DNA from: a virus
Direction: 5' to 3' (one strand)
Length of the DNA stretch: 60,885 nt
IMG/VR virus record: IMGVR_UViG_3300048591_000686
Location: 1-60,885 of that record
Position numbers and translations under genes: made by a program. The number at the start of each line of letters is the position of its first letter. Position 1 is the stretch's first letter. Under the pieces are notes generated by a model. The model was given only the letters and a program-made list of their open reading frames with translations, ran no database searches and was not told where the DNA came from. Positions 3,593 through 30,267 of the stretch are shown here, piece after piece.

Positions 3593-4116
3593 GCGTCACC
3601 GCCTTCCTCATTCGTACCGCTGCCCGCATCGCGCCCCGCCAGTACATCGTCGATCGTTTCGCCGGTCGGCGTATGATCGGGGTCATCACTGCGCGCCGGC
3701 CGGCGGTCGATAGGCCCCACCGGCAATGCATACCGCACCATACTGCGCCACTCCTCCGCGAGCTCGATTGCCCAGCGCACCAATTGCGCCGACGTGCCAC
3801 CATAGCGGGTGGTGACGCGGCGATCCGAGGCCAGCACGCGCAACGGCTCGCCTTTCGGCAGGTACTGGTTGCCACCGTCGGCGAAGATGACCGACTGCAC
3901 GCACAGGCTGAAACCGTACCGTTCACAGTAAAGCGCCGTGGTTTCGGCGATCACTGGGTAGCGGATGGTTTCGCCCGTCTGCGCCTCCTGGTCGAATGCG
4001 AGCTGCGCCGGGGAAGGTGGGTGGATCACAGTGAACTTGCCCACCGTGGCGTCTTGGTTGGTGTCATGGAAGAAGCGGAGGAGGTCCGCTTTGTCGAAGG
4101 TCTTTTCCTGTGCCAT
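3589..4116 (-). CDS. Hypothetical protein (175 aa)
   Basis: ATG 4116 follows the ribosome site AAAGGACAGGGAG. The mixed alpha/beta sequence has the segments GKFTVIHPPSPAQLAFDQEA and LVRWAIELAEEWRSMVRYAL, and an acidic C-terminal tail. No motif I can assign; it is placed between the HTH protein and a membrane protein in the replication-side operon. Confidence 0.6.
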   Translation of the reverse strand: MAQEKTFDKADLLRFFHDTNQDATVGKFTVIHPPSPAQLAFDQEAQTGETIRYPVIAETTALYCERYGFSLCVQSVIFADGGNQYLPKGEPLRVLASDRRVTTRYGGTSAQLVRWAIELAEEWRSMVRYALPVGPIDRRPARSDDPDHTPTGETIDDVLAGRDAGSGTNEEGGDA

Positions 4117-4158
4117 TCTCCCTGTCCTTTCGTTGGCTGAATTGATTGATGGTGTTGC

Positions 4159-4461
4159 CTAGTTGCGAGAAAACCGGTCGCGCAGGTCGCCACCTAAATG
4201 CAGCGCCGGTGCGTGCCCATGCACCTGCTGCGTGGCGGATTGCGTGGTCGCGGCGAGGGCTTGCAGGTGGAGCGCCGCCGCGTCGCGCTCGCGCTGCAAT
4301 GCCAGCAGGCGGCACTGGGTGCGGTCGTGGCGCTTGCACTCGGCATAGTAGTTGCGCTCCCAGTCGTCGGCGCGGCGCTGGTAGTCGCGCAGCACGACGG
4401 CGACAATGGCGAGTGTGGCGAGCATCCCAGCGGCGAAAGTGATCAGCGCGGGCATGGTCAC
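4159..4461 (-). CDS. Membrane-anchored coiled-coil protein (100 aa)
   Basis: A GTG start at 4461 overlaps the upstream stop (GTGA); an in-frame ATG at 4455 is an alternative. One N-terminal transmembrane segment (ALITFAAGMLATLAIVAVVL) is followed by a basic/acidic coiled coil with CKRHDRTQCR. The layout resembles Rz-type spanins, but no lysis genes are adjacent, so that is only a possibility. Confidence 0.5.
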   Translation of the reverse strand: MTMPALITFAAGMLATLAIVAVVLRDYQRRADDWERNYYAECKRHDRTQCRLLALQRERDAAALHLQALAATTQSATQQVHGHAPALHLGGDLRDRFSRN

Positions 4462-4925
4462 TGCCCTGCCTTGCGCCGCACGTAGTCGGCAATCTCGCCC
4501 ACGTGGGCGTCGTCAACCTGCCCCGTCGCCAGGCGCAGCACGGTATAGCCCAGCATCGCCGCCGCGTTGTACTTTTCGCAGTCGCCCCGAAAGCCCGCGG
4601 CCTGCGTGTGGCGCCCCCCGTTGTAAATTCCCCCCTCCAACTCAATGATGGTCTTGGTGGGCAGGTGGCAGTAGTCGGCGCGCCATTTGCGGGCGGGGTG
4701 GAACCGGTACTCCCGACGCAGGTCGGGGCCGCCCCACGTCTGCCACAGCGCCTCGAAGCGCTGCGCCAGTGCGTTGACGGGCGTAACCGCCGTTACGGGC
4801 GTGGCGCCGCCCCTGGCCAGCATCTGTTCCAGTTGCGCCGCCGTCGCCGCGCCGGGGTCGTCGGCCACCACCAGTTCGGGGTTGCCGGCCAACATCGCTT
4901 TGTACTCGCGCTCGCTGATGCCCAT
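4458..4925 (-). CDS. PDDEXK-superfamily nuclease
   Basis: A 155-aa protein. Its second half carries the phage nuclease pattern: a basic patch HPARKWRADYCH, then IIELEGGIYNGGRHTQAAGF, DCEKYNAAAMLGYTVLRL and a C-terminal helix. The D (ADY) and E-x-E (ELEGG) are the likely metal ligands, as in small VSR/restriction-like nucleases of phage replication modules. It probably cleaves branched or nicked replication intermediates. Three bases separate it from the upstream gene. Confidence 0.75.
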   Translation of the reverse strand: MGISEREYKAMLAGNPELVVADDPGAATAAQLEQMLARGGATPVTAVTPVNALAQRFEALWQTWGGPDLRREYRFHPARKWRADYCHLPTKTIIELEGGIYNGGRHTQAAGFRGDCEKYNAAAMLGYTVLRLATGQVDDAHVGEIADYVRRKAGQ

Positions 4926-4928
4926 GCC

Positions 4929-5561
4929 CTATTCCTCCCCGGGATACAATGCGGCGCGCCAGTTGGGGGGCACGTCCGCCGCCTTGCACGCGGCTTCGTA
5001 GGCGCGGCCGGCGCTGTAGATGGTGCGCAGCGCTGCCCACATCTTGTCCCGCCCCGTCTCCGTGTCGCAGGCGGCGATGATGTCCAGCAGCGGGCAGTCG
5101 CCCGACGTGGGGGCCAGCAGCCGGTAGAGCGCATCGCTGTAGCGCCCGCGTGCCTCGTTGTGGTCGTGGTGGGCCGCGGCTGCCTTGCACCCCACGCACG
5201 TGCAAGCGCCGGGGTAGACGCTCTGCGGGTCCGCCGCGCTGCCGGCCGCCGCTGCCATCGCCGCCCAGTCGGACGCCGCGCGTTCCGCCGTCGCCAGTGC
5301 GTCGTTGGCCTGCGCTTCCAGCCCCCGGATGGCGGCGGTGATCGTGGCGACGGCCGCCGCGTCCTTCGCCCTGCGCGCCGCGGCGAGCCGTTCGTAACCG
5401 CGGGCGATGCGCCCATGCCAGCACAGGTGCAGCGTCGAGCCGTCCGGCTGGGCGATGGGCTGCGGTGCGTAGGCTGCGTTGAGCGCCGCCACCGCCGCGC
5501 CGCGTGCGGCCTCGATCTTGCTGGGTGTCACTGTTTCGCGTTGCTTTGTGAGTACTGCCAT
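4929..5561 (-). CDS. Hypothetical protein with Cys cluster (210 aa)
   Basis: I chose ATG 5561 (MAVLTKQRETVTPSKIEAAR) because it follows GAGGGAATT; the frame runs open further upstream without coding character. It is an Ala-rich helical protein with a CTCVGC motif followed by an HHDHNE segment, possibly a metal site. It overlaps the upstream gene by 34 bases. Family unknown. Confidence 0.6.
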   Translation of the reverse strand: MAVLTKQRETVTPSKIEAARGAAVAALNAAYAPQPIAQPDGSTLHLCWHGRIARGYERLAAARRAKDAAAVATITAAIRGLEAQANDALATAERAASDWAAMAAAAGSAADPQSVYPGACTCVGCKAAAAHHDHNEARGRYSDALYRLLAPTSGDCPLLDIIAACDTETGRDKMWAALRTIYSAGRAYEAACKAADVPPNWRAALYPGEE

Positions 5562-5980
5562 AATTCCCTCGCTTTCGGCAAATCGCCTACCATCATCGCC
5601 TTGAACCGTCCGCCCCACTGCCCCCCGAGCGCCGCCAGTACCTGCCAGTGCGCCGCATCGCCTCCGTAGCCCACATCCACCCATTCGCCGCGGCTGTAGA
5701 AGATGCGCTGCGTCTGCGCCGGCGGCGGGGGCGCAAACGGCGGACTCAGCGCCCGCACCAGGTCGCCGGCGTTGGTGAGGATGACCACCGCCTCCGCCCC
5801 CATCAGCGCCGCCTGCGCCAAAGCCTGTGCAAGGATTGTCCAGGGTTGGCCGGTAAGCGCCAGCGCGTCGGCGATGGCCTCCCCCTGCCAGTCGCGGAGG
5901 GTCGCGGTAAGCGCCGCGTGGCCGTCCGCGGCCCATAGGCCAAGGGTCAGGGTGCCGGCGTCGGTGGGCAGGGGGGTCAC
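5528..5980 (-). CDS. Hypothetical protein, weak RNase H-like character
   Basis: A 150-aa GTG-started protein. A beta-hairpin start (GTLTLGLWAADGHAALTATL), an Ala-rich helix (WTILAQALAQAALMGAEAVV) and a strand ending TNAGDLV recall the order of RNase H elements, but the acidic catalytic set is not clearly present. The assignment is tentative. It is the first gene downstream of the iteron block in the leftward direction. Confidence 0.5.
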   Translation of the reverse strand: MTPLPTDAGTLTLGLWAADGHAALTATLRDWQGEAIADALALTGQPWTILAQALAQAALMGAEAVVILTNAGDLVRALSPPFAPPPPAQTQRIFYSRGEWVDVGYGGDAAHWQVLAALGGQWGGRFKAMMVGDLPKARELWQYSQSNAKQ

Positions 5981-6287
5981 GCGACACCCCCAAAAACGGC
6001 CAAAGAGGGCGCGGTAACTGAAGTAACTGCCTTTTTCCGCGATAGAGAGATTTTTAGAAAGACAAAAACATATACATATATTTGAAGGGTCACACGCGAT
6101 GGTTCTCTATCATGTAAAAAGTCAGTTACTTCAGTTACTATAGTTACTACATATACTTGTTTTGTCGTCCTCCAGTGTACGAAGCGACTTGGCCTGCTTG
6201 CATGGGCGGCAAAATGGCCGTTTTGCGGTAACTGAAGTTCAGTTACCGCGCCGCAAAAGTCAGTTACCGCGAGGTGATTTTCAGTTA
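5981..6287. other. Candidate replication origin with CAGTTAC iterons
   Basis: A 307-bp gap without a convincing gene. It holds nine copies of CAGTTAC or its complement, at 6014, 6023, 6123, 6132, 6141 (as TAGTTAC), 6228, 6240, 6261 and 6282. Three are a 9-bp tandem array (6123-6149). Copies at 6228 and 6240 lie within a perfect 25-bp palindrome at 6225-6249, with 12-bp arms. Between the first two groups is an AT-rich stretch (about 6041-6085), a plausible unwinding element. It sits immediately downstream of the primase-helicase gene. An alternative is a multi-site operator. Confidence 0.5.
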
Positions 6288-9086
6288 CTATAGGCCAGTT
6301 GCTGCGCATGCCGCCTCGCTTTCGTCCATCGTGTCGATGCCGTCCGCGTTCGCGTCCAGGATGGCCGGCGTCAAATGCAGCACACGCTGCTTTTCGCCGC
6401 CAATGGATACCAGCCGCGTCGTTTGATCCCCGCCTGTCGTGGCAAGCCAACCCAACTGCTGCATCTGCCCGTACAACGTTTGTGGGGAGATTAGCAACTG
6501 GGTAGGCCCTAGCAGGCGCTTGACCGCGGCGAGGGCAATGGCCGGCAGCAAATACACCCCGCTGCCATCCACCCAGCCCAACACGCGGTCGCGCTCGAAA
6601 TTGTCCGGCTTGCCGAGGCTGCGGTCGATCAACTTATACTGCCCGCTGCCGATCAACTCACGCAGTGCATTGCGGTACTGGAGCGCCTCCATCGCCTCCA
6701 CCGTCGATTTCGCCATGGTGCGGGCAATGGCACGCAGCCCTATGGCGTGCTCCTGGCTATACGAAAGCAGCGCAGGTCCGATGGTGGGATGTTCGCAGGC
6801 GAGGCGCCAGGCCAGTTCATTGACAGCGAGATTCGACGCGACGCGGGCAATGTTGGCGCTGTCCTTTTCGATGCGGCTCAGGCGCGCCGCCCACTCAGAG
6901 CGCAGGCGGGGGAATGTGCGTCCGGCAGCCTTGGCGGCGCTGCGCCCATCATCGGATTGCAGCCACGTGATCCAGGCCCAGCCGACGGCGCATAGATGTT
7001 CGCTCAGGTCCTGCGCACTGGTCAGCAGGTCGTTGGGTTCGCCGCGCTGCCAGTCGAACGTCACGAGCAGGATGCGGGCGATGCTGGCCGCGTCGTCGCG
7101 CGGCAGGTCCTCGCCCGTTACGACGGGGATGCAGCGCACCAGCTTTGTCTCGCGCAGCTCCCCGTCGCGGCTGCTGCGCTTGCGGTCGCCGCCTTCGAGT
7201 ATGTTGTGAATCAGGTTGACGAAATCGTGTTTGCCGTTGCCGGTGTTGGGCTTGTAATTGTCAATCAGCAGCGGTAGATCGTGAGCGTGCGCTGCAAATG
7301 CCATGATGGCGTTACGGGTCGCACCCTCGCCCAGTTTGAGCAGGTTGTCATTCGACGCAAACCCCGGCCCGTAGAGGCACATGGCCGCCTGCGTCCACGA
7401 CGTCTTGAGGCTGCCGGTCCGGCCGGCGATGAAGATGGCTACCCGCTCATTGCCCAGCCCTGCCGGACGCAGCATGGGCGGCATCAGCAGCGAGGCGATA
7501 ATGGGCGTCGTCAATCTCGGCTGCATTGCATCGATGAGGTTTGTCAAGGCTAGCAGCCCCGTCTCCAACTCGTGGCCCGGCTTCGGTGCGGCATAGGCGA
7601 TCTGGCGCGGCACGCTGATGAGCGTCGAATCGTCCATGCCGGGCATCAGAAACGACGTATAGCTATCGTCCTCCCAGCCGGTGCGGTAGTAGCGCACGCG
7701 TTGGGGCCGGTCGGCCTCCGTCGTCAGCTTGCCGATAGCGGGACGCAGGTGGGCTGACATGCCGTTGTATACCACGTCAATCCCACCGGTGGCGGCGGTC
7801 AGGCACGCCAGCAGCCGCACGTCCGATCCAAAATCCTGCCCGCTGATTTCGCAGCGAAACGCCCCGCGCCGCAATCCTCGCCCTGCCAGCACCAGGTGGC
7901 TGTTACCATTTTCATCTACGATTTCTTCGGCGATGGTCACGCAGAAATCGGCGATGGGCTTCGACTCCACCCCGTCGCGTGTCTCATACAGCAGCACCAT
8001 TTTCCCGCCCTTGACTGCGTAGGGCCACGTCTGGTGCTTGACGGCCGCCGCCTCCGCACTGTCCGGCAGCGCCTCCAAATCGAGCGGGTCCGGCAGCACC
8101 GCCGCGAACCCATACTCATACGGCGCGAATCCGTTTTCCCCGCTGCCGTTCAGCGCCACCACGCGCGGCTTGGCAATGCCGCTGCGCAGCCCACTGCGAA
8201 TCGTGGCGATGGCCTCGCCTTCGCCCTGCCCGACGTCTAGCGCCGCACTCAGCAGCGCCTGCTCGACCTCGCCTTCAGTGAGCAGCCCCGCACCCACCAG
8301 TTGCCCCAACGAGTGCGCCGCCTTGTTCACGGCGTTATTGTGCGTATGGGGAGCGGACGTGCGAATGAGTTGCAATTCCTCATCCAGGGCTTTCTGCGCG
8401 TACCCCTGCGGCGGCACATGGGGCGCGCTGCCGTTGGTGCCGTTGCGGTGCGTAACCGGCGTTACGGACTTAACCTCGGGCTCTTTTGTTACCGCAGCGT
8501 AGGCCAGCAGCAGCGCGTCACGGTCGACGGGCGCCGGCGCTCCCACCGGCTCGCCGTGCGCCCAGGCGTACACGCCGCCCGATGGGTGCACGGACCCCGG
8601 CAGCGCGGCATAGTGCCCCGTCCATCGCAATTCGATGTGCCCGCCGCCGTCACGCGCGGGGCGATCTTCCTTCCCCTTCTCAATCTCCAACCCCTCGCAG
8701 CGCAGCCACACATGCGCGCCGCCGCCGGGCGTTTTGACCGTCCAGTGATAGTTGACGGGCAATCCTGCAGCGCCGAGAAACTCGCTAACCATGGCCGGCG
8801 CGGTCGCATCGAAATCGATGCACACCACATCGCCGCTGACCGGGCCGCACACGCCGCCCAACCCACCGACGCTCACCCACCATTCATGTTTTTTTATCTG
8901 CGCCCAATGCGCGTCCGTTTGTTTTGTCTGCTGCCAGTCGTCCCAGCGGAACCGCATAATGCTGCCTGATGGGGAGACGCCCGTCTCGACCGGCCGTTTG
9001 TCGGCCCCGAGCGGCACGAGGTTGAAACCCAGTGCCCGATATTTCGCCGCCAGTTGGCGGTATTCTTTCGCCGTTTCAACCGTCAT
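6288..9086 (-). CDS. PrimPol-type primase / DUF927-like helicase
   Basis: A 932-aa replication protein. ATG 9086 overlaps the upstream stop (ATGA). The N-terminal PrimPol-like domain has GFNLVPLGADKRP, then VVCIDFDA (Asp91 and Asp93 as metal ligands), PGGGAHVWL (His125) and GGGHIELR (His150). The C-terminal ATPase domain has a Walker A GRTGSLKTS near residues 555-563 and a Walker B-like LLIDNY about 60 residues later, as in DUF927-type helicases fused to primases. It should prime and unwind DNA for phage replication, very likely acting at the adjacent iteron block. Confidence 0.85.
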   Translation of the reverse strand: MTVETAKEYRQLAAKYRALGFNLVPLGADKRPVETGVSPSGSIMRFRWDDWQQTKQTDAHWAQIKKHEWWVSVGGLGGVCGPVSGDVVCIDFDATAPAMVSEFLGAAGLPVNYHWTVKTPGGGAHVWLRCEGLEIEKGKEDRPARDGGGHIELRWTGHYAALPGSVHPSGGVYAWAHGEPVGAPAPVDRDALLLAYAAVTKEPEVKSVTPVTHRNGTNGSAPHVPPQGYAQKALDEELQLIRTSAPHTHNNAVNKAAHSLGQLVGAGLLTEGEVEQALLSAALDVGQGEGEAIATIRSGLRSGIAKPRVVALNGSGENGFAPYEYGFAAVLPDPLDLEALPDSAEAAAVKHQTWPYAVKGGKMVLLYETRDGVESKPIADFCVTIAEEIVDENGNSHLVLAGRGLRRGAFRCEISGQDFGSDVRLLACLTAATGGIDVVYNGMSAHLRPAIGKLTTEADRPQRVRYYRTGWEDDSYTSFLMPGMDDSTLISVPRQIAYAAPKPGHELETGLLALTNLIDAMQPRLTTPIIASLLMPPMLRPAGLGNERVAIFIAGRTGSLKTSWTQAAMCLYGPGFASNDNLLKLGEGATRNAIMAFAAHAHDLPLLIDNYKPNTGNGKHDFVNLIHNILEGGDRKRSSRDGELRETKLVRCIPVVTGEDLPRDDAASIARILLVTFDWQRGEPNDLLTSAQDLSEHLCAVGWAWITWLQSDDGRSAAKAAGRTFPRLRSEWAARLSRIEKDSANIARVASNLAVNELAWRLACEHPTIGPALLSYSQEHAIGLRAIARTMAKSTVEAMEALQYRNALRELIGSGQYKLIDRSLGKPDNFERDRVLGWVDGSGVYLLPAIALAAVKRLLGPTQLLISPQTLYGQMQQLGWLATTGGDQTTRLVSIGGEKQRVLHLTPAILDANADGIDTMDESEAACAATGL

Positions 9087-19526: not shown

Positions 19527-22154
19527 ATGGACTTCAACGAATTTGCACGGACCTACGCCGAATGGTTGGCGACCAACAAGATCGACATCCAGAGCGCGTC
19601 GGGACTCAACGTTCAGCGGCGGGATCTGCACCCGCGCCTTTTTGAGTACCAGAAAGACGCGGTGCTGTGGGCGCTGCGCCGGGGGCATGGCCTTTTGGCC
19701 GAACGTTTCGGCATGGGCAAGACGACGCAGCAGATCGAAATTTTGCGCCAGGTGCACGCGGCCACCGGCGGCGGTCAACTGGTCATTTGCCCGTTGGGCG
19801 TGCGCACCCAGTTTGTGCACGAAGATGGCCCGGCGATGGGCGTCGAATTTGTCTACGTGCGCACCGACGCTGAAGCGGCGCAGGCCCTGGAACGCACGCC
19901 GTACCTCATCACGAACTATGAGAGGGTGCGCGATGGCGACATCAGCGCCGAATGGCTGACCGCCAACGTGACCGGCGTCTGTCTCGATGAGGCCGCCATC
20001 CTGGGCAACCTGGGCACAAAAACGCAGGACCAGTTTCGCCTGATTTTCGACAGCATCGAATACAAATGGGCGGCCACTGCGACGCCGGCGCCGAACGACT
20101 ACCGGCAGCTCATCTACTTCGGCGATTTCTTTGACGAGCTGGATGCTGGCCAGGCGCTGACCCGTTGGTTTGGCCGCAACCCCGACAAAGCAGGCGATCT
20201 GCAGCTATTGCCCCACATGGAACATGAGTTCTGGATGTGGGTGGCGTCGTGGGCGCTCTTTGTCGAAAAGCCAAGCGACCTCGGCGCAAACTACAGCGAT
20301 GCCGGTTTCGAGATGCCCGAGATCAACATCGTCTGGCACCGGTTGACCTCCGACCACACGAAGATTTGGGACGCCACCGACAACCACGGGCAGCATTTTC
20401 TACTCAAAGACACGACGGCCGGCGTCACCCAGGCGGCGCGGGAGAAGCGCGACAGCCTCGACATTCGCATCGCCGAAGCCGCCCGCATCATCGAAGGCGC
20501 ACCGGACAAGCACTGGATCGTGTGGCACCATCTGGAGGACGAACGCCGGGCCATCAGCCGCCTGATTCCGAACGTTTCAGCGGTATGGGGCGCGCAGGAC
20601 CTGGAAGAGCGCGAGCAGACGATTCTCGACTTCTCGCATGGCAAGCTCCCGATCCTGGCCACCAAGCCCGAATTAAGTGGCAGTGGCTGCAATTTCCAGT
20701 ATCACTGCGCCGACGCCATCTACGTGGGCCTGAGCTTCAAATTCCGTGACTTCATCCAGTCGGTGCACCGCATCCACCGCTACGGGCAGACGCAGCCGGT
20801 GACGATCCACATCATCCACACCGACGCAGAGGATGCCGTGCGCGATGCCCTGATGCGCAAGTGGCGACAACACGACGAACTGATGGAGCGGATGCGGGCC
20901 ATCGTCAAAGAGCATGGCCTTACCCGCGAAAGCCTGGTCACGGGCCTGCGCAGATCCATCGGCGTCACCCGGCAGGAGGCCAGCGGCGAAGCGTGGCAGG
21001 TGGCGCTCAATGACACAGTGCTGGAGTGCTACGGCCTGCCCGACAATTCGATCGACGCCATCGTAACGTCGATCCCGTTCGGAAATCATTACGAATACAG
21101 CGCCAACCGCAACGACTTCGGCTTTAACGACACCGACGCCAGCTTTTGGAATCAGATGGATTTCTTGATTCCGAGTCTCTACCGGGCGCTTAAGCCGGGG
21201 CGCATGGCGTGCATCCACGTCAAGGATCGGCTGCTCTACGGGCACCAGACGCCCCACGGCATGATGGAAGTGGACTACTTCTCTGACGACTGCAACCGGG
21301 CGTTTCGCAAACACGGTTTCGTCAGCTACGGCCGGATCACAATCCCGACCGACGTCGTGCGTGAGAACGGGTCAACCAACCGCCTCGGCTGGACGGAGAA
21401 TAGCAAAGACTCTACGAAGATGGGTGTGGGGATGCCCGAATACGTGCTGCTGTTCCGCAAACCGCAGACGGACAAGTCGCGCAGCTACGCCGACGAACCG
21501 GTGCGGAAAGACAAGGCGACCTACACCCGTGGCCGCTGGCAGACCGACGCGCACCAACTCTGGCGCACCAACGGGCACGCCATCAGCGAACATGCACCGC
21601 TGCTAACGCAAGACGAGATCAATGGCATGGACGGCGCGCAGCTTTACCGCTGGTGGCGCGAGCGGATGCGCAGCGGGGCACCCTACGATCACGAAGAGCA
21701 CGTCAAGCTGTGCGAGATGGTAGGCGACCGCCTGCCGGCCAAATTTATGCTGTTCCCGACGATGGTCAGCGCAGACAGTGACGAATACGTCTGGACGGAT
21801 GTGCTGTTCATGCGCACCTTGAACATGCAAAACGCCCGCCGCCGCCTCGCCAAGCACGTCTGCCCGTTCCCGTTGGACATCCCGCGCCGCCTCGTGGTGC
21901 GCTACACCAACCCCGGTGACCTGGTGTTGGACCCGTTTAGCGGCCTAGGCACGGTGGGCTACGTGGCCTTGCAGGAGGGGCGGCGCTACCTGGGCGCGGA
22001 ACTCAACCGCGACTACTGGCAGATTTCGATCAACTATCTCACCGAACTGGAGATCACGGCGCACGCCCCAACGCTGTTTGACATGCCGGATGCGACCCAG
22101 GCAGACGACGATGCGGTGGATATGCCCGAGCTTGAACTAATGGCGGCGGACTGA
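19527..22154 (+). CDS. SNF2-type helicase / DNA methyltransferase fusion
   Basis: An 875-aa protein. The N-terminal SF2 helicase has GMGKT (62-66), LDEAA (Walker B, 153-157), a motif III-like ATATPAPN and a motif VI-like VHRIHRYGQT. The C-terminal DNA methyltransferase is of the permuted type: catalytic motif TSIPFG (514-519) in place of the usual S/D-P-P-Y/F, and the SAM-binding LDPFSGLGTVG near 801-811. It probably modifies adenine or cytosine amino groups, with a motor for tracking along DNA. Strong ribosome site GGGGGAGGGG. Possible roles are anti-restriction or replication-linked modification. Confidence 0.85.
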   Translation: MDFNEFARTYAEWLATNKIDIQSASGLNVQRRDLHPRLFEYQKDAVLWALRRGHGLLAERFGMGKTTQQIEILRQVHAATGGGQLVICPLGVRTQFVHEDGPAMGVEFVYVRTDAEAAQALERTPYLITNYERVRDGDISAEWLTANVTGVCLDEAAILGNLGTKTQDQFRLIFDSIEYKWAATATPAPNDYRQLIYFGDFFDELDAGQALTRWFGRNPDKAGDLQLLPHMEHEFWMWVASWALFVEKPSDLGANYSDAGFEMPEINIVWHRLTSDHTKIWDATDNHGQHFLLKDTTAGVTQAAREKRDSLDIRIAEAARIIEGAPDKHWIVWHHLEDERRAISRLIPNVSAVWGAQDLEEREQTILDFSHGKLPILATKPELSGSGCNFQYHCADAIYVGLSFKFRDFIQSVHRIHRYGQTQPVTIHIIHTDAEDAVRDALMRKWRQHDELMERMRAIVKEHGLTRESLVTGLRRSIGVTRQEASGEAWQVALNDTVLECYGLPDNSIDAIVTSIPFGNHYEYSANRNDFGFNDTDASFWNQMDFLIPSLYRALKPGRMACIHVKDRLLYGHQTPHGMMEVDYFSDDCNRAFRKHGFVSYGRITIPTDVVRENGSTNRLGWTENSKDSTKMGVGMPEYVLLFRKPQTDKSRSYADEPVRKDKATYTRGRWQTDAHQLWRTNGHAISEHAPLLTQDEINGMDGAQLYRWWRERMRSGAPYDHEEHVKLCEMVGDRLPAKFMLFPTMVSADSDEYVWTDVLFMRTLNMQNARRRLAKHVCPFPLDIPRRLVVRYTNPGDLVLDPFSGLGTVGYVALQEGRRYLGAELNRDYWQISINYLTELEITAHAPTLFDMPDATQADDDAVDMPELELMAAD

Positions 22155-24285: not shown

Positions 24286-24481
24286 CACACCCACCGCACC
24301 GAAGGCGCTGGCCCCTCACGAACTGCGCACGGTGGCGATGCCGGACCTGCGCACGCCGGACCAGCGCCACGCCGACGACATGGCCGCGCTGACGGCGCGC
24401 ATTGATTTACTGGAGGCGGCCATCGTGCGGCAAGCGGATGTGTTGCAGGTGCTGATGTTGCGCCTGGATGATAGGACGTAG
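24278..24481 (+). CDS. Hypothetical helical protein (67 aa)
   Basis: It starts MHDTPTAPKALAPHELRTVA and ends with a helix, ADDMAALTARIDLLEAAIVR, that probably oligomerises. It sits between the Cys-rich protein and the small terminase. No family recognised. Confidence 0.45.
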   Translation: MHDTPTAPKALAPHELRTVAMPDLRTPDQRHADDMAALTARIDLLEAAIVRQADVLQVLMLRLDDRT

Positions 24482-24485
24482 GGCG

Positions 24486-24857
24486 ATGGCGCGGCGGGAA
24501 TACAGCGACGAACTAAAGGCGCAGGTCATGGCGGCATTGCTGGCTGGCCAGAGCGTTTCGTCCACCGCGCAGGCGTACAAGATCCCAAAAGGCACAGTGA
24601 GCAGTTGGCGCAAGGCAGCCTTGGGCAAGGTCGCGGAGGGTGCGGTCGAATCCGACGCGACCCAAAAAAGCACAACGCTAGACGATCTGCTGCAAGGCTA
24701 CGTTGAAACAAACCTGGTAACGTTACGTGAACAGTCTCAGTTCTTCCGAGATAAAGAGTGGCTCAAACGGCAGCAGGCGTCCGAGCTTGCAGTCCTTCAC
24801 GGGGTGCTTGCCGACAAAACAGTTCGGATTCTCGAAGCATACGGCAATGCAGGATAG
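24486..24857 (+). CDS. terS: Putative terminase small subunit
   Basis: A 123-aa protein with an N-terminal helix-turn-helix (YSDELKAQVMAALLAGQSVS, then STAQAYKIPKGTVSSWRKAA) and a C-terminal helical region (DDLLQGYVETNLVTLREQSQ) suited to oligomerisation. It lies directly upstream of, and overlaps by 11 bases, the large terminase. Expected role: recognising the packaging site and loading TerL. Confidence 0.7.
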   Translation: MARREYSDELKAQVMAALLAGQSVSSTAQAYKIPKGTVSSWRKAALGKVAEGAVESDATQKSTTLDDLLQGYVETNLVTLREQSQFFRDKEWLKRQQASELAVLHGVLADKTVRILEAYGNAG

Positions 24858-27495
24858 TAGGGGCAAAGCTGAGGATGACGCCTGTTCCAGCCTCCTGGCC
24901 TTCACCCTCTACACCTACCCCACCTACCAGGTCAATTGGCACCACCGTGTTATCTGTGAACATTTAGACGATTTTGTAGCTGGCAAAATTAAGCGGCTGA
25001 TGGTTTTTGCGCCTCCCCGCAGTGGCAAGTCGGAACTCGTGTCGAGGCGGCTGCCGGCGTTCATCCTAGGGCAAAGACCCGACACAACAATTATCGCTAC
25101 CAGTTACGGTGCGGACCTGGCCAGGCGCATGAATCGCGACGTTCAGCGCATTATGGATGAAGATGCTTACCGCAAACTGTTCCCCGATACGAAGCTGTGG
25201 GGTAAGAACGTGCGTTCCGACGCGCAGGGCTCATGGCTGCGCAATTCTGATATGTTTGAGGTGGTAGGCCATCGGGGCTACTACCTGGGGACGGGCGTTG
25301 GGGGGAGCATAACGGGCAGTGGTGCGCATTGTTTAACGGGAGAAACTAGCGTAAGAACTGAAATGGGTAACATTGCTATAAGTAACCTATTCATGTTACA
25401 ATACCATCCAAGGGTGTGGGCATTCGACCACGAATCAAATGCTCCCGTCTTGCGAAGGATTGTGGCGGTCAAGGAGAGCTATAGCGATGACATCCTCGAA
25501 ATCGTTACCGTCAGTGGAAGAAGTATTAAAGCAACTGCCGAGCACCGTTTCTACGTACATGGACGCGGATACCAAGAGGCGGCGCTTCTCTGTCCAGGGG
25601 ACCAAATCCAAGCTGTCGAGATCGAACAAGACGTGTGGGATTTGCGGAAAGACCAAGGGAACGGAAAGCCGCGGCACGATGTGCAAAGATTGCTACATGC
25701 GAATCAGGGCCATCAAGGTATCATTGGCCTGCGCATGGTGCGGCAAGGAGTTCGAGCGCCCTTTGTACGTACACGAAAAGTCCTTAAAGCACGGAAGGCA
25801 AGAGGCTTTCTGCTCCAAGGCTTGTCTGTGCGCCAACAACAATTACAAGAAGGCCGTTGCGGCAAATCGCACCTGCCTTCATTGCGGTACTCTCTTGGTT
25901 GCTACGCGCGGCCGATACTGTTCAGCAGCCTGCAAGGCGGCCTCAGCAAAGAAGAGGAAAGAGTTAGAGGATCGTACTTGCCCTTGGTGCGGAGCAACGT
26001 TTTCGCCGGCAACAAGTCGCAGGCAGTATTGTTCCAGGGCGTGCGCGAATGCCGCTCATTCAGTACGGATGCGCGGCAGGGGAAACTCGCACTTCAAAAC
26101 GGGGACCAGCTACGCGAAATGGTTTGCGGAAATGCGCCCGTTGATTATGGAGCGCGACGAGCATCGTTGCGTGGTGTGCCAGACGTCGGAACGGATGAAC
26201 GTCGTTACGTGGAAGGACCAAGAAGTAGATCGCTCGAACCTAATTATTCATCACATCAACGAAGACCCCACCGACAATACCCCCCAGAATCTGGTCACGC
26301 TGTGCAAGACTTGCCATGCCGTGCACCACAAGTCGGCACAGACACCGTGGCCGTGGTTAGGCGTCTATGCACAGGTAAAATCCCAGTCTATGACATCCAA
26401 GTGGAAGGGACTCACAACTTCTTTGCGGAAGGTGTACTCACCCACAACTGCGTAATCATCGACGATCCTGTTAAGAACCGCAAAGAGGCCAATTCACCCA
26501 CCTACCGGCAATCCGTCTTTGAGTGGTATACCTCTACCCTATACACCCGCCTGACTCCTGACGGGCAAATCCTGCTGACCGTGACCAGATGGTCAGAAGA
26601 TGACCTGGCAGGCCGCCTACTGGCGCTCTCTAAATCCGACCCCGAAGCTGACCAGTGGACCACGCTGATATTGCCGGCGGTTTCCGAAGAACCTATCGCC
26701 CCCTACGATGAACGCAAAGAGGCCGGCAAGCCGTTGTGGGCAGACCGTTGGGGTATCGACAAGCTGCGCACCATCGAACGCACCGTCGGCTCCCGCGACT
26801 GGGCCAGCCTCTACCAACAGCGCCCCGCACCGGACGAGGGCGAGATCTTCAAACGCCACCACTGGCGCTACTGGCAGCCGCGTGGGGCCAACCTGCCGCC
26901 GGTCACGGTGACGATGGGGGACGGGTCCGTCATCGAAGTGGAGCCGGTGGAGCTGCCGGCCCGTTTTGACGAGCTGCTGCAATCCTGGGACATGGCGTTC
27001 AAGGACACGGCCGGCTCCGACTTTGTGGCCGGCATGGTGCTGGGGCGTTTGGGTGCGGATAAATTCATACTCGACTACGCCAACGACCGCATGGACATCG
27101 TGGCATCTATGGACGCCGTGACGCACTGGGCGATCAAGTGGCCCAAAGCCATCGCCAAGCTGATCGAGGACAAAGCCAACGGGCCGGCGGTCATCCAGAT
27201 GTTGCGAAAGAAGATGGCGGGATTGATCCCGCGCGAACCCCAGGGCGGCAAAGTCAGCCGCGCCTACGCTGCACAGCCCGAGGTGCAAAGCGGTAACGTG
27301 TACCTACCCCACCCCCACATCGCCCCCTGGACGGCGCAATTCATCGCCAACGCCGCCGCCTTTCCCAACGCGGCCCACGACGACGACGTAGACGCATTTA
27401 CGCAGGCGATCATCTACTGGCAGGAGGCCGGGTCAGTCGCCACGGCCCCGGCGCAGGTCACGAGTCAGGCGACGATACAGGAGATGTTTGGATGA
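24847..27495 (+). CDS. terL: Terminase large subunit with intein
   Basis: An 882-aa precursor. The ATPase has Walker A APPRSGKS (55-62), then ATSYGADLARR. The intein covers residues 162-534. The host sequence resumes CVIIDDP (Walker B). The C-terminal RuvC-like nuclease has LLQSWDMAF, ADKFILDYANDRMD and HDDDVDAFTQAI. After splicing, about 509 aa, the usual TerL size. The intein lies immediately before Walker B, so packaging needs splicing. ATG 24847 is chosen; the frame is open upstream inside the small terminase. Confidence 0.92.
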   Translation: MQDSRGKAEDDACSSLLAFTLYTYPTYQVNWHHRVICEHLDDFVAGKIKRLMVFAPPRSGKSELVSRRLPAFILGQRPDTTIIATSYGADLARRMNRDVQRIMDEDAYRKLFPDTKLWGKNVRSDAQGSWLRNSDMFEVVGHRGYYLGTGVGGSITGSGAHCLTGETSVRTEMGNIAISNLFMLQYHPRVWAFDHESNAPVLRRIVAVKESYSDDILEIVTVSGRSIKATAEHRFYVHGRGYQEAALLCPGDQIQAVEIEQDVWDLRKDQGNGKPRHDVQRLLHANQGHQGIIGLRMVRQGVRAPFVRTRKVLKARKARGFLLQGLSVRQQQLQEGRCGKSHLPSLRYSLGCYARPILFSSLQGGLSKEEERVRGSYLPLVRSNVFAGNKSQAVLFQGVRECRSFSTDARQGKLALQNGDQLREMVCGNAPVDYGARRASLRGVPDVGTDERRYVEGPRSRSLEPNYSSHQRRPHRQYPPESGHAVQDLPCRAPQVGTDTVAVVRRLCTGKIPVYDIQVEGTHNFFAEGVLTHNCVIIDDPVKNRKEANSPTYRQSVFEWYTSTLYTRLTPDGQILLTVTRWSEDDLAGRLLALSKSDPEADQWTTLILPAVSEEPIAPYDERKEAGKPLWADRWGIDKLRTIERTVGSRDWASLYQQRPAPDEGEIFKRHHWRYWQPRGANLPPVTVTMGDGSVIEVEPVELPARFDELLQSWDMAFKDTAGSDFVAGMVLGRLGADKFILDYANDRMDIVASMDAVTHWAIKWPKAIAKLIEDKANGPAVIQMLRKKMAGLIPREPQGGKVSRAYAAQPEVQSGNVYLPHPHIAPWTAQFIANAAAFPNAAHDDDVDAFTQAIIYWQEAGSVATAPAQVTSQATIQEMFG
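25330..26448 (+). mobile_element. Terminase intein carrying a nested out-of-frame gene
   Basis: A 373-aa intein in the terminase frame. It starts CLTGETSVRTEMGN, has block B KATAEHRFYVHGRG and CPGDQI, and ends IPVYDIQVEGTHNF...VLTHN followed by Cys+1: all splice residues are present. The roughly 245 codons between block B and the C-terminal block are open in the terminase frame but look like non-natural, Arg/Gln/Ser-rich sequence. In another frame the same DNA encodes a complete HNH endonuclease (25487-26455). A/T content is higher than in the surrounding gene. Confidence 0.9.
25487..26455 (+). CDS. HNH homing endonuclease nested out of frame in the intein
   Basis: A 322-aa protein in a frame shifted +1 relative to the terminase. 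ATG 25487 has AAGGAG ten bases upstream. It carries four Cys-rich zinc units (CGICGK...CKDC; CAWCGKEFERP...FCSKAC; CLHC...YCSAAC; CPWCGATFSPA...YCSRAC). These are followed by an HNH core: CVVC (228-231), IIHHINED (His255, His256), QNLV, and CKTCHAVHH (273-281). The stop TAA at 26453 is seven bases past the intein's last codon. It should nick or cut intein-free terminase genes to spread the element. ATG 25559 is a shorter alternative without a ribosome site. Confidence 0.8.
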   Translation: MTSSKSLPSVEEVLKQLPSTVSTYMDADTKRRRFSVQGTKSKLSRSNKTCGICGKTKGTESRGTMCKDCYMRIRAIKVSLACAWCGKEFERPLYVHEKSLKHGRQEAFCSKACLCANNNYKKAVAANRTCLHCGTLLVATRGRYCSAACKAASAKKRKELEDRTCPWCGATFSPATSRRQYCSRACANAAHSVRMRGRGNSHFKTGTSYAKWFAEMRPLIMERDEHRCVVCQTSERMNVVTWKDQEVDRSNLIIHHINEDPTDNTPQNLVTLCKTCHAVHHKSAQTPWPWLGVYAQVKSQSMTSKWKGLTTSLRKVYSPTTA

Positions 27496-27718: not shown

Positions 27719-29095
27719 ATGCCCACCATCCTAGACCGCATCACATCCCTCTGGCAGCGCCGCGCCACGCCGCCCACCGTCACCGCACCACCCGCAGCCG
27801 CGCCCACCGCACAGGCGACGTTCAGCGCCGCCGCCTTCACCACCCAGCGCGACCGGCGCAGCAAGATCGCCGACTGCCGGCAGATGGTGGAAGACGACCC
27901 GCGGCCCAAGCAGATCCTGGCGACGCTGGCCCGCGACGCCACCAAGGGCGGCTTCACGCTGCAACTGACCGGCCCGCGCGCCGCCGCCGCCCAAGTCATC
28001 GCCGATGCGCTGTTTGCCCGCATCAAGCTCAACACGCGCCTGGATGACTGGGCGCGGCTGACCTTCCGCGACGGCGACACGTTCCTGGAGCTAGGCGTTG
28101 CGGCCAACGGGGAGATTGTCGAGATCACCCGCAAGCCCAGCTTAGAAATGTATCGCTGGTCGGACGACTTTGACCGCTTTTTCGACCCCGCCGCCGCCTT
28201 CTACTGGACGGACCAACCCACGGCCGCCAACACGCCCCCGCCCGGTGCGACGCTGTTCCCCGAGTGGCAGATCGTGCACGCCCGCTGGGACCGCGACGAG
28301 GGCTCACGCTACGGCACACCGCTACTGGCCAGCGCACGCCGTGCGTACAAGAGGATGACGCAGGGGGAGTTGGACATCGCCATCCGGCGCAAAACGCGGG
28401 CCGGCCTGCGCTACCTGCACATCCTGGAGGGCGCGAGCCCCGCAGAGATAGAGGCATACAGGGCGATGAACGCGCCTGCGCTGGGCGACAACTTCGCCGC
28501 GGTCAGTGACTTCTTCAGCAACAAGGCCGGCGGCATCCAACTGCTGCAGGGCGACGCCAACCTCAGCCAAATTGACGACGTGCTGCACCACGTGGACACG
28601 TTCGGCGTGGCGTCGCTGGTGCCGCTGGAACTCATCGGTTACGGGCGCAACCTGAACAGGGATGTGCTCGAACAGAAAAAGGAGCAATACGACGAAGCGG
28701 TAGGCAGCGTGCGCGGCTGGCTGGTGGCTGAATTTATCCTGCCTATCCTGGAGCGCCAGTGGCTGATGCTTGGTATCTGGCCCGACGCGCTAGAGGTCGA
28801 TGTCCAGTGGAAGGCTAAGAAGGAAGCGACGCCGCTGGAACTCAAGGACATGGCAGCGTTCGCCACGGCGGTCAAGGCTGCCAGCATCCTCACCGACCCG
28901 ACACTGCTGCGCATCCTGGCGACGCGGCTGCCGGACTTCGACGTCGACGCGGAGATTGCTGCGCTGGAAGGCGAGGCCGCAGAGCGCGAGGCGGCGGACC
29001 GGCTGGAAATGCAGCGCATGGCAGTCAACGCGCAGGCGGCCGCGCAGGATGGGGGTGACGGTGACGATGATGCCGACCAGGAGGCGCAGCCATAA
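27719..29095 (+). CDS. Portal protein
   Basis: A 458-aa protein with portal hallmarks: an early SKIADCRQMVEDDPRPKQIL, DDWARLTFRDGDTFLELGV, LFPEWQIVHARWDRDEGSRY and GTPLLASARRAYKRM, then ISQ-type membrane of the clip and LEQKKEQYDEAVGSVRGWLV. It forms the dodecameric DNA gate in the capsid vertex. It lies between terminase and MuF-like protein, the standard order; its stop overlaps the next start (TAATG). Confidence 0.88.
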   Translation: MPTILDRITSLWQRRATPPTVTAPPAAAPTAQATFSAAAFTTQRDRRSKIADCRQMVEDDPRPKQILATLARDATKGGFTLQLTGPRAAAAQVIADALFARIKLNTRLDDWARLTFRDGDTFLELGVAANGEIVEITRKPSLEMYRWSDDFDRFFDPAAAFYWTDQPTAANTPPPGATLFPEWQIVHARWDRDEGSRYGTPLLASARRAYKRMTQGELDIAIRRKTRAGLRYLHILEGASPAEIEAYRAMNAPALGDNFAAVSDFFSNKAGGIQLLQGDANLSQIDDVLHHVDTFGVASLVPLELIGYGRNLNRDVLEQKKEQYDEAVGSVRGWLVAEFILPILERQWLMLGIWPDALEVDVQWKAKKEATPLELKDMAAFATAVKAASILTDPTLLRILATRLPDFDVDAEIAALEGEAAEREAADRLEMQRMAVNAQAAAQDGGDGDDDADQEAQP

Positions 29096-30267
29096 TGCCC
29101 CCCTTCGTCACCCTGCGCAATGCCGACCGCATCCAACACGTCGCAGTGTCCCGCCTGCAGATTTACGTCGCCGGCCGCGTCCATGCGCTTATCTACCCGT
29201 TCCAAGCGTGGCTCTTGCGCGAGGTGGCCGCCGCCGCCGACGGTGAGGGTATGACCGACGCGGGCCAACTGGCAGGCGTGGTGCGCGCCGCGGAACCGCG
29301 CTGGCGGGCGGTGGTCGAGGACTACACCGCGCTGCTGGCCAGGGCGCGGCAGCAGGCGGGTGACATCGCCTATACGCCGTGGCGACTCAAGCACAACCAC
29401 CTCATCCGGCAGCCCATCGAGCGCATCCAGGAGACGTTTACCCCGTCACTCGACGACTACGCCAAGCTGGTCGAGATGTGGGTCAAGCGCCGCAACTACG
29501 CCCTCCAGGCGGCACAGTCGCGCGTCTACAGCGACGGCCTGAACCTCTCGCAGCGCATCTGGCGGCTGGAACAGGGCGGGATGCAGACCATCCGCAACAC
29601 CATCGCCACCGGCATGGCCGAGCGCACCAACGCCTGGGACCTCGCCGAACGGTTGGAGGGGCAGCTCGCAGCCGGGCAGGACTGGCCCAAATGGAGCGAA
29701 ACGCGGCTGAGCAGGATGGACGCCCGGCAGCGGCTGGCGAGCAAAGAGGGTCTGTGGCGCAACGCCGACGAAATGCGCCGCGGCAATCCCGACGTGACCG
29801 GGCTGCTGACACCGCCGGCCGGCATCAGTTACAACGCACTGCGGCTGGCACGCAACGAGATTCAGGCGGCCAACCATGCGGTGACGAGCGACATTGCGCA
29901 GAATTTCCCCGGCATCGTGGGGCGCAAGGTGGTGCTGAGTCCGGCGCATCCGAAGTCGGACATCTGCGACGATGTGGCGGCGGGCGGGCCGTATGACAAG
30001 AGCTACAACGCACTTCCTTTACATAGCCAATGCCTTTGCCGCTACGAAGAAGTCCTCATGTCGCGCGCTGACTTCACCAAACAGGCGAGCGCATGGGCGC
30101 GGGGGGAAGGCGACTTCCTGGACGGCTATTCGTCCTGGCTGGGCGTGCGCTCCCTGTTCCCGGTCGGCGCGGACGCGGCAGGGCTTTTGGAACTGGCGGC
30201 CACGTTGGATCTGTGGCTTGGTAATGACGTAGACGGCATGGCGACGGTGTTGGATTTGGGGCGGTGA
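29095..30267 (+). CDS. MuF-like minor head protein
   Basis: A 390-aa protein. The C-terminal part has LRLARNEIQAANHAVTSDIA, then SPAHPKSDICD, and NALPLHSQCLCRYEEVL: the His/Cys/Asp pattern of the Mu gpF/SPP1 gp7 head-morphogenesis domain. The N-terminal region is helical. It is expected inside or at the portal vertex of the prohead. Confidence 0.82.
   Translation: MPPFVTLRNADRIQHVAVSRLQIYVAGRVHALIYPFQAWLLREVAAAADGEGMTDAGQLAGVVRAAEPRWRAVVEDYTALLARARQQAGDIAYTPWRLKHNHLIRQPIERIQETFTPSLDDYAKLVEMWVKRRNYALQAAQSRVYSDGLNLSQRIWRLEQGGMQTIRNTIATGMAERTNAWDLAERLEGQLAAGQDWPKWSETRLSRMDARQRLASKEGLWRNADEMRRGNPDVTGLLTPPAGISYNALRLARNEIQAANHAVTSDIAQNFPGIVGRKVVLSPAHPKSDICDDVAAGGPYDKSYNALPLHSQCLCRYEEVLMSRADFTKQASAWARGEGDFLDGYSSWLGVRSLFPVGADAAGLLELAATLDLWLGNDVDGMATVLDLGR

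Follow-up and report, generated by a model that had tools for sequence, protein, structure and literature searches.

The insertion in the terminase large subunit gene (terL) of the analysed viral DNA is very probably a frame-nested intein, in which a protein-splicing domain occupies the terminase frame and a zinc/HNH endonuclease gene is written over the same nucleotides in the +1 frame. The window, i.e., the whole stretch of DNA that was analysed, is 60,885 nucleotides long (positions 1 to 60,885 of the IMG/VR record IMGVR_UViG_3300048591_000686) and represents a single metagenomic contig. Splicing, translation of the HNH protein from its own start, cleavage, and homing were inferred without any experiment. 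A wider claim, held less firmly and still considered rather probable, is that frame-nested inteins, with intein and homing endonuclease overprinted, form a widespread and mostly unrecognised class that may have at least three independent origins: the terminase Walker-B site (HNH in host+1, zinc units then HNH), a terminase C-terminal site (host+2, HNH then zinc), and a DNA methylase (host+1). Frame nesting would also be the prevailing endonuclease-bearing form at this phage terminase site.

The terminase intein and its nested HNH gene

terL encodes an intein-interrupted terminase precursor on the plus strand (24847..27495), as are the other features of the terL region described below. Its reading frame is open from 24727 to 27495, with the ATG at 24847 as the likely start, and it matches PHROG_38 (terminase large subunit, 7.2e-107), Terminase_6C, and Terminase_6N. 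Upstream of it lies a gene for an HTH protein (24468..24857), a probable small terminase as judged from its position and a Pfam HTH_23 match (1.1e-5). The intein comprises 373 amino acids in the terminase frame (25330..26448) and is located directly before the conserved IIDDP motif. It begins with Cys1 (25330-25332), ends with His-Asn (last Asn at 26446-26448), and is followed by Cys+1 at 26449. The N-terminal splicing half, with blocks A-B (CLTGETS, TAEHR), occupies 25330..25617, and the C-terminal half, with blocks F-G (VYDIQV, FFAEGVLTHN), occupies 26320..26448, where it overlaps the C terminus of the HNH protein. An initial sequence-only reading had placed the splicing blocks in the terminase frame, and the profile matches confirm this, since TIGR01445 (intein_Nterm, 3.4e-9), TIGR01443 (intein_Cterm, 1.1e-9), and Pfam Intein_splicing (2.4e-10) were all found in that frame.

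AlphaFold modelled residues 1-96 and 331-373 of the intein with confidence (pLDDT ~88-98), and the open linker of about 230 residues between them (25618..26319) was predicted to be disordered, with pLDDT mostly below 55. Foldseek returned the DnaB and RecA mini-inteins as the best matches of this model (E 6.5e-7 for the DnaB mini-intein). The sequence criteria for an intein (N- and C-terminal splicing motifs, Cys1, terminal Asn, and Cys+1) are satisfied, as is that of a Hint fold in the predicted structure and that of precise insertion into a conserved host motif, here with the junction before IIDDP and with intein-free alleles known. On these motifs and this model, the insert is a Hint-type intein; protein splicing itself is inferred.

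The HNH gene (25487..26455) runs from the ATG at 25487 to the TAA at 26453-26455 and encodes 322 amino acids. Its best match is PHROG_1271 (HNH endonuclease, 1.2e-29), and its AlphaFold model has a mean pLDDT of 83.5, with the N-terminal 19 residues disordered. The four zinc units of the HNH frame are C50-C53 with C66-C69 (25634..25693), C82-C85 with C109-C113 (25730..25825), C130-C133 with C145-C149 (25874..25933), and C165-C168 with C182-C186 (25979..26044), the last of which is invariant across 37 aligned sequences. The HNH module (CVVC ... HHIN ... N268 ... CKTC ... H281) occupies 26168..26329, with an active-site-like HH at 26249. Residues C228, C231, H255, H256, N268, C273, C276, H277, and H281 are invariant in the same 37 sequences, which satisfies the criterion of HNH catalytic residues and zinc ligands. 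For this protein, Pfam HNH_3 stayed below its cut-off, but three host+2 members scored 2.8e-13 to 1.2e-14 with it. A search of the whole HNH model against the PDB gave no match at E<=0.001. The evidence for a nuclease therefore consists of PHROG_1271, the invariant residues of the HNH module, and weaker profile matches. A full HNH protein with four zinc units in the +1 frame, and a stop codon ending seven nucleotides past the intein end at 26448, had both been read from the sequence correctly. The proposed ribosomal signal was also found, as AAGGAG at 25471..25476 (dG -8.5 against the anti-Shine-Dalgarno sequence) precedes the ATG at 25487; Shine-Dalgarno (SD) support across the family was not uniform.

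Frame nesting, open frames, and selection among relatives

Relatives were gathered by three routes, namely HNH similarity, the intein C-block alone, and a second HNH type, and most of the loci found are metagenomic. Among 100 distinct inteins with an N-block, an HNH, and a C-block, counted with stops allowed, the HNH lies in the host+1 frame in 64, in host+2 in 36, and in the host frame in none. The criterion for a canonical in-frame homing intein is thus not satisfied, and the outcome that would have overturned the initial proposal, relatives with HNH always in frame, was contradicted. The search with the C-block alone, which cannot favour any frame, recovered 80 loci, some of them near-duplicates, of which 69 carried HNH at +1, 11 were mini-inteins, and none had HNH in frame. 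As a control, the same HMMs detected the known in-frame HNH of the dCTP deaminase intein of cyanophage CL131 (PMC6293099), an intein whose two remaining frames are rich in stops. Some 80 additional HNH loci from the same searches had no second long open frame covering them. In relatives with terminase flanks on both sides, including Gordonia phage Clown, Synechococcus phage S-EIVl, and four Streptomyces plasmids, the two terminase halves share one frame and the HNH is always exactly one frame off.

The host+2 class is located near the TerL C terminus, after the RNaseH-like domain, with the domain order HNH then zinc, and includes the isolated phages TJE1 (Tetrasphaera) and Highwayman (Acinetobacter) and the deposited genome LS06-2018-MD07. 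A third group consists of DNA methylase inteins with a nested HNH (L024, L028, and L050). As far as sequence comparison can tell, frame nesting is a conserved class of about a hundred distinct phage genes and not a one-off. The occurrence at three gene sites, in two relative frames, and with differing domain orders suggests at least three separate acquisitions, an inference made without a tree.

Several individual loci deserve mention. One partial contig (L146) is among the relatives. L045 was flagged as nested and rejected, since it appears to be an ORF that arose by chance in high-GC sequence at the end of a contig, and Brevundimonas phage Poludnitsa (L255) is not nested and has a freestanding HNH adjoining terL. 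A further HNH protein similar to the one nested in the methylase inteins of L028, L050, and L024 was also found. In L024, a single phage methylase gene (3816-6323) contains one out-of-frame HNH gene within a plain insertion (4001-4684, host+2) and another within an intein (4930-5778, host+1). Two inteins occur in each of the terminases L002 (3331-6942), L003 (1383-4334), L085 (1-3417), and L065 (1377-4445). The first inteins of all four are near the Walker A site or N-terminal part, and in L002, L003, and L085 this intein is LAGLIDADG-like and in frame. The second intein has a frame-nested HNH in L002, L065, and L085 and is endonuclease-free in L003.

The double open frame of the window is not a product of chance. 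The terminase frame had been described as stop-free and the third frame as interrupted, and this was upheld, with 0 stops in both the terminase and HNH frames and 11 in the third frame over 25487-26452. When the HNH protein was held fixed and its synonymous codons were permuted, 9.6 terminase-frame stops were expected and none was observed, and none of 20,000 shuffles was stop-free. Under the synonymous null, 24 core loci were expected to have 2.5-16 intein-frame stops each and had none; for five GC-rich loci among them, the permutation test alone was weak (P 0.015-0.053) and the redraw test strong. The intein frame is free of stops in all 100 distinct inteins, and the third frame has 2-37 stops per intein.

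Substitution patterns were consistent in three separate groups. The exteins and N-terminal splicing blocks vary mainly at terminase codon position 3, with block A-B nearly flat across codon positions in the S-EIVl-like group, whereas the linker/HNH part varies mainly at terminase position 1, equivalent to HNH position 3. Over the final 90 nt, which are coding in both frames, divergence in the Streptomyces group is 0.03-0.07 at all positions, compared with 0.36 at extein position 3. Mean amino acid identity among 67 host+1 members (pairs at 30-45% HNH identity) is 0.37 for HNH, 0.20 for the intein frame, and 0.21 for the unused frame; the corresponding values in the host+2 class are 0.36, 0.19, and 0.19. 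The linker is conserved no better than the unused third frame, which argues that it is kept open but not kept as a protein. The early suggestion that both frames are under selection thus holds for the HNH sequence and for stop avoidance in the intein frame, but not for the linker as a protein sequence. Because selection acts on the sequence of one frame and merely on the absence of stops in the other, these inteins offer a clean natural system for the study of overlapping-gene evolution.

Production of the HNH protein and competing readings

According to the proposed mechanism, ribosomes starting at terL would read through the insert and produce a precursor composed of extein, Hint half, junk linker, Hint half, and extein, from which the Hint domain would excise itself and join the terminase halves. 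Ribosomes starting inside the intein, here probably at ATG 25487 with AAGGAG, would read the +1 frame and release a free zinc/HNH endonuclease. This enzyme would recognise the uninterrupted terL site, and repair of the cut from an intein-bearing copy would move the intein and the HNH gene together. Splicing and homing would thereby be uncoupled at translation, an unusual arrangement in which the endonuclease is freed without extra DNA and the intein's only cost is a stop-free linker of 230 residues.

The internal start was assessed through the position of ATG codons. Of 68 host+1 members, 38 have an ATG in the HNH frame at 140-185 nt from the intein start, compared with 3-4 for the other frames; of 37 host+2 members, 31 have one at 240-295 nt, compared with 11-14. 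Within the same inteins, these ATGs show stronger SD pairing than ATGs in the remaining frames (p 1.5e-8 for host+1, 6.8e-7 for host+2). Part of the host+1 signal could stem from conserved intein codons (Ala-Thr-Arg, Asp-Gly), and the ATG of the conserved interval is absent in 30 of the 68 host+1 members. An earlier SD comparison (p 5e-10) was discounted because start codon numbers were unequal between frames, and under a stricter control the SD strength of HNH-frame starts did not differ significantly from that at random positions. Only the positional ATG test was therefore relied on for the SD.

Programmed ribosomal frameshifting could instead carry ribosomes from the terminase/intein frame into the HNH frame and yield a terminase-Hint-HNH fusion, with or without a shift back. 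The start of HNH-frame conservation inside or after splicing block B would fit this, as would members without a convincing SD or ATG. However, slippery heptamers for -1 shifts, the only shift motifs searched, showed no excess (16 of 66, with 18.7 expected, and 12 of 35, with 11.0 expected), shifts in opposite directions (+1 and -1) would be required for the two classes, and most members have an HNH-frame ATG with SD at a fixed position. Frameshifting is accordingly considered improbable, and internal initiation is the likelier route to HNH, although it is not proven. Of the two routes initially envisaged, a tolerated junk linker with a separately made nuclease is better supported than a double frameshift, which the heptamer counts and the positional ATGs with stronger SD disfavour.

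The remaining readings concern the nature of the insert itself. A single metagenomic contig without reads leaves room for an ordinary in-frame HNH flanked by one erroneous insertion and one erroneous deletion; this is practically ruled out because the relatives show the same nesting in all 100 distinct inteins, including separately sequenced isolates (Clown, S-EIVl, TJE1, and Highwayman) and Streptomyces plasmids, so that the out-of-frame HNH stands against a flanking-indel artefact. HNH genes with a separate start are common in group I introns, and a self-splicing intron with a terminase frame open by chance might be imagined. It is hardly tenable in view of the significant intein N and C motifs, the confident Hint fold in the terminase frame, and the absence of intein-frame stops in 100 of 100. 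No Rfam intron match was found in the window even at permissive thresholds, or in 10 relatives at the gathering threshold. The nested HNH might also serve as a terminase-associated packaging nuclease, instead of or besides homing. Most cases were found in terminases, and HNH proteins belong to some phage packaging machines (Kala et al. 2014, cited in PMC12613952). Yet the HNH sits only inside the intein and is absent from intein-free close relatives, it is deleted in mini-inteins, and the same arrangement occurs in DNA methylases, which leaves the packaging role quite doubtful.

Mobility, known systems, and annotation

A nested HNH enzyme that spreads its intein remains the preferred reading, and the distribution of the inteins agrees with it. 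They are patchy among close relatives, and a clean empty site is seen when the intein-bearing Clown (PMD|C) is compared with the intein-free Bakery (PMDF). In Streptomyces plasmids, intein-bearing and intein-free alleles interleave by identity. The nested HNH is probably the enzyme that spreads the intein; cleavage and homing are inferred from the patchy distribution and empty sites only. Mini-inteins without HNH occur at the same terminase site. L116 lacks exactly 516 nt (172 codons) of linker relative to L114 and otherwise shows no difference from it over the aligned positions of the stretch compared; the deletion removes most of HNH and keeps the intein frame. This difference may be a real polymorphism or an assembly variant. 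A nonsense codon inside HNH is found only in L144 and L175, where the intein frame stays open. HNH decay was proposed for 10 of 100 members with HNH-frame stops and was rejected, as most of these stops lie before the HNH start or after its end. Loss of HNH with the intein frame left intact, as in L116, L144, and L175, fits a homing cycle in which the element can do without HNH but needs its intein frame open.

The closest known system, the ShiLan domain, is an insertion in phage methylases that carries HNH out of frame and that its authors were unable to identify as an intein or intron (PMC11855218). That insertion has 195 amino acids, lies in the third frame without a detectable RBS, is known from methylase only, and is thought to stay in the protein (PMC11855218). 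Both systems have zinc/HNH in another frame, a host frame left open, and a mobile-like distribution. The ShiLan insertion lacks a splicing domain, whereas the host frame of the window carries what is by its motifs a bona fide Hint intein, and the window is thus not a ShiLan-type insertion; L055 and L056 do look ShiLan-type, and L024 combines both kinds in its methylase gene. Canonical inteins with in-frame LAGLIDADG or HNH share the Hint blocks, the conserved insertion site, and an endonuclease between blocks B and F. In these, the excised protein includes the endonuclease as a domain, and the other frames are full of stops, whereas the nested endonuclease would be a separate protein from another frame. 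Free-start HNH genes in group I introns likewise yield an endonuclease translated from its own start inside the element, but in the nested intein the other frame must stay readable because splicing takes place at the protein level. The papers searched yielded the ShiLan work alone and no case of a genuine intein paired with an endonuclease in another frame; an actinophage intein preprint may pre-empt part of the present findings. This preprint ('Non-Canonical Architecture'), from the ShiLan group, reportedly surveys PhagesDB inteins, may include Clown, and may describe this architecture.

Standard annotation mostly overlooks the two-frame arrangement. The records of Clown, S-EIVl, and TJE1 do not list the HNH gene. 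In the Streptomyces plasmids (L090-L093), HNH is annotated and the terminase is cut to a C-terminal fragment starting mid-gene, with the intact intein-containing terminase missed. Phage inteins classed as endonuclease-free therefore merit a recheck in all frames.

Two further genes of the window were recorded. An 875-aa ORF at 19527-22154 has a helicase-like part followed by a DNA methylase-like part, as judged by eye from its translation. The head morphogenesis protein at 29095-30264 also matches PHROG_16625 ('Bxa ADP-ribosyl transferase', 1.2e-10) in its C-terminal part, which probably reflects a shared morphogenesis domain.
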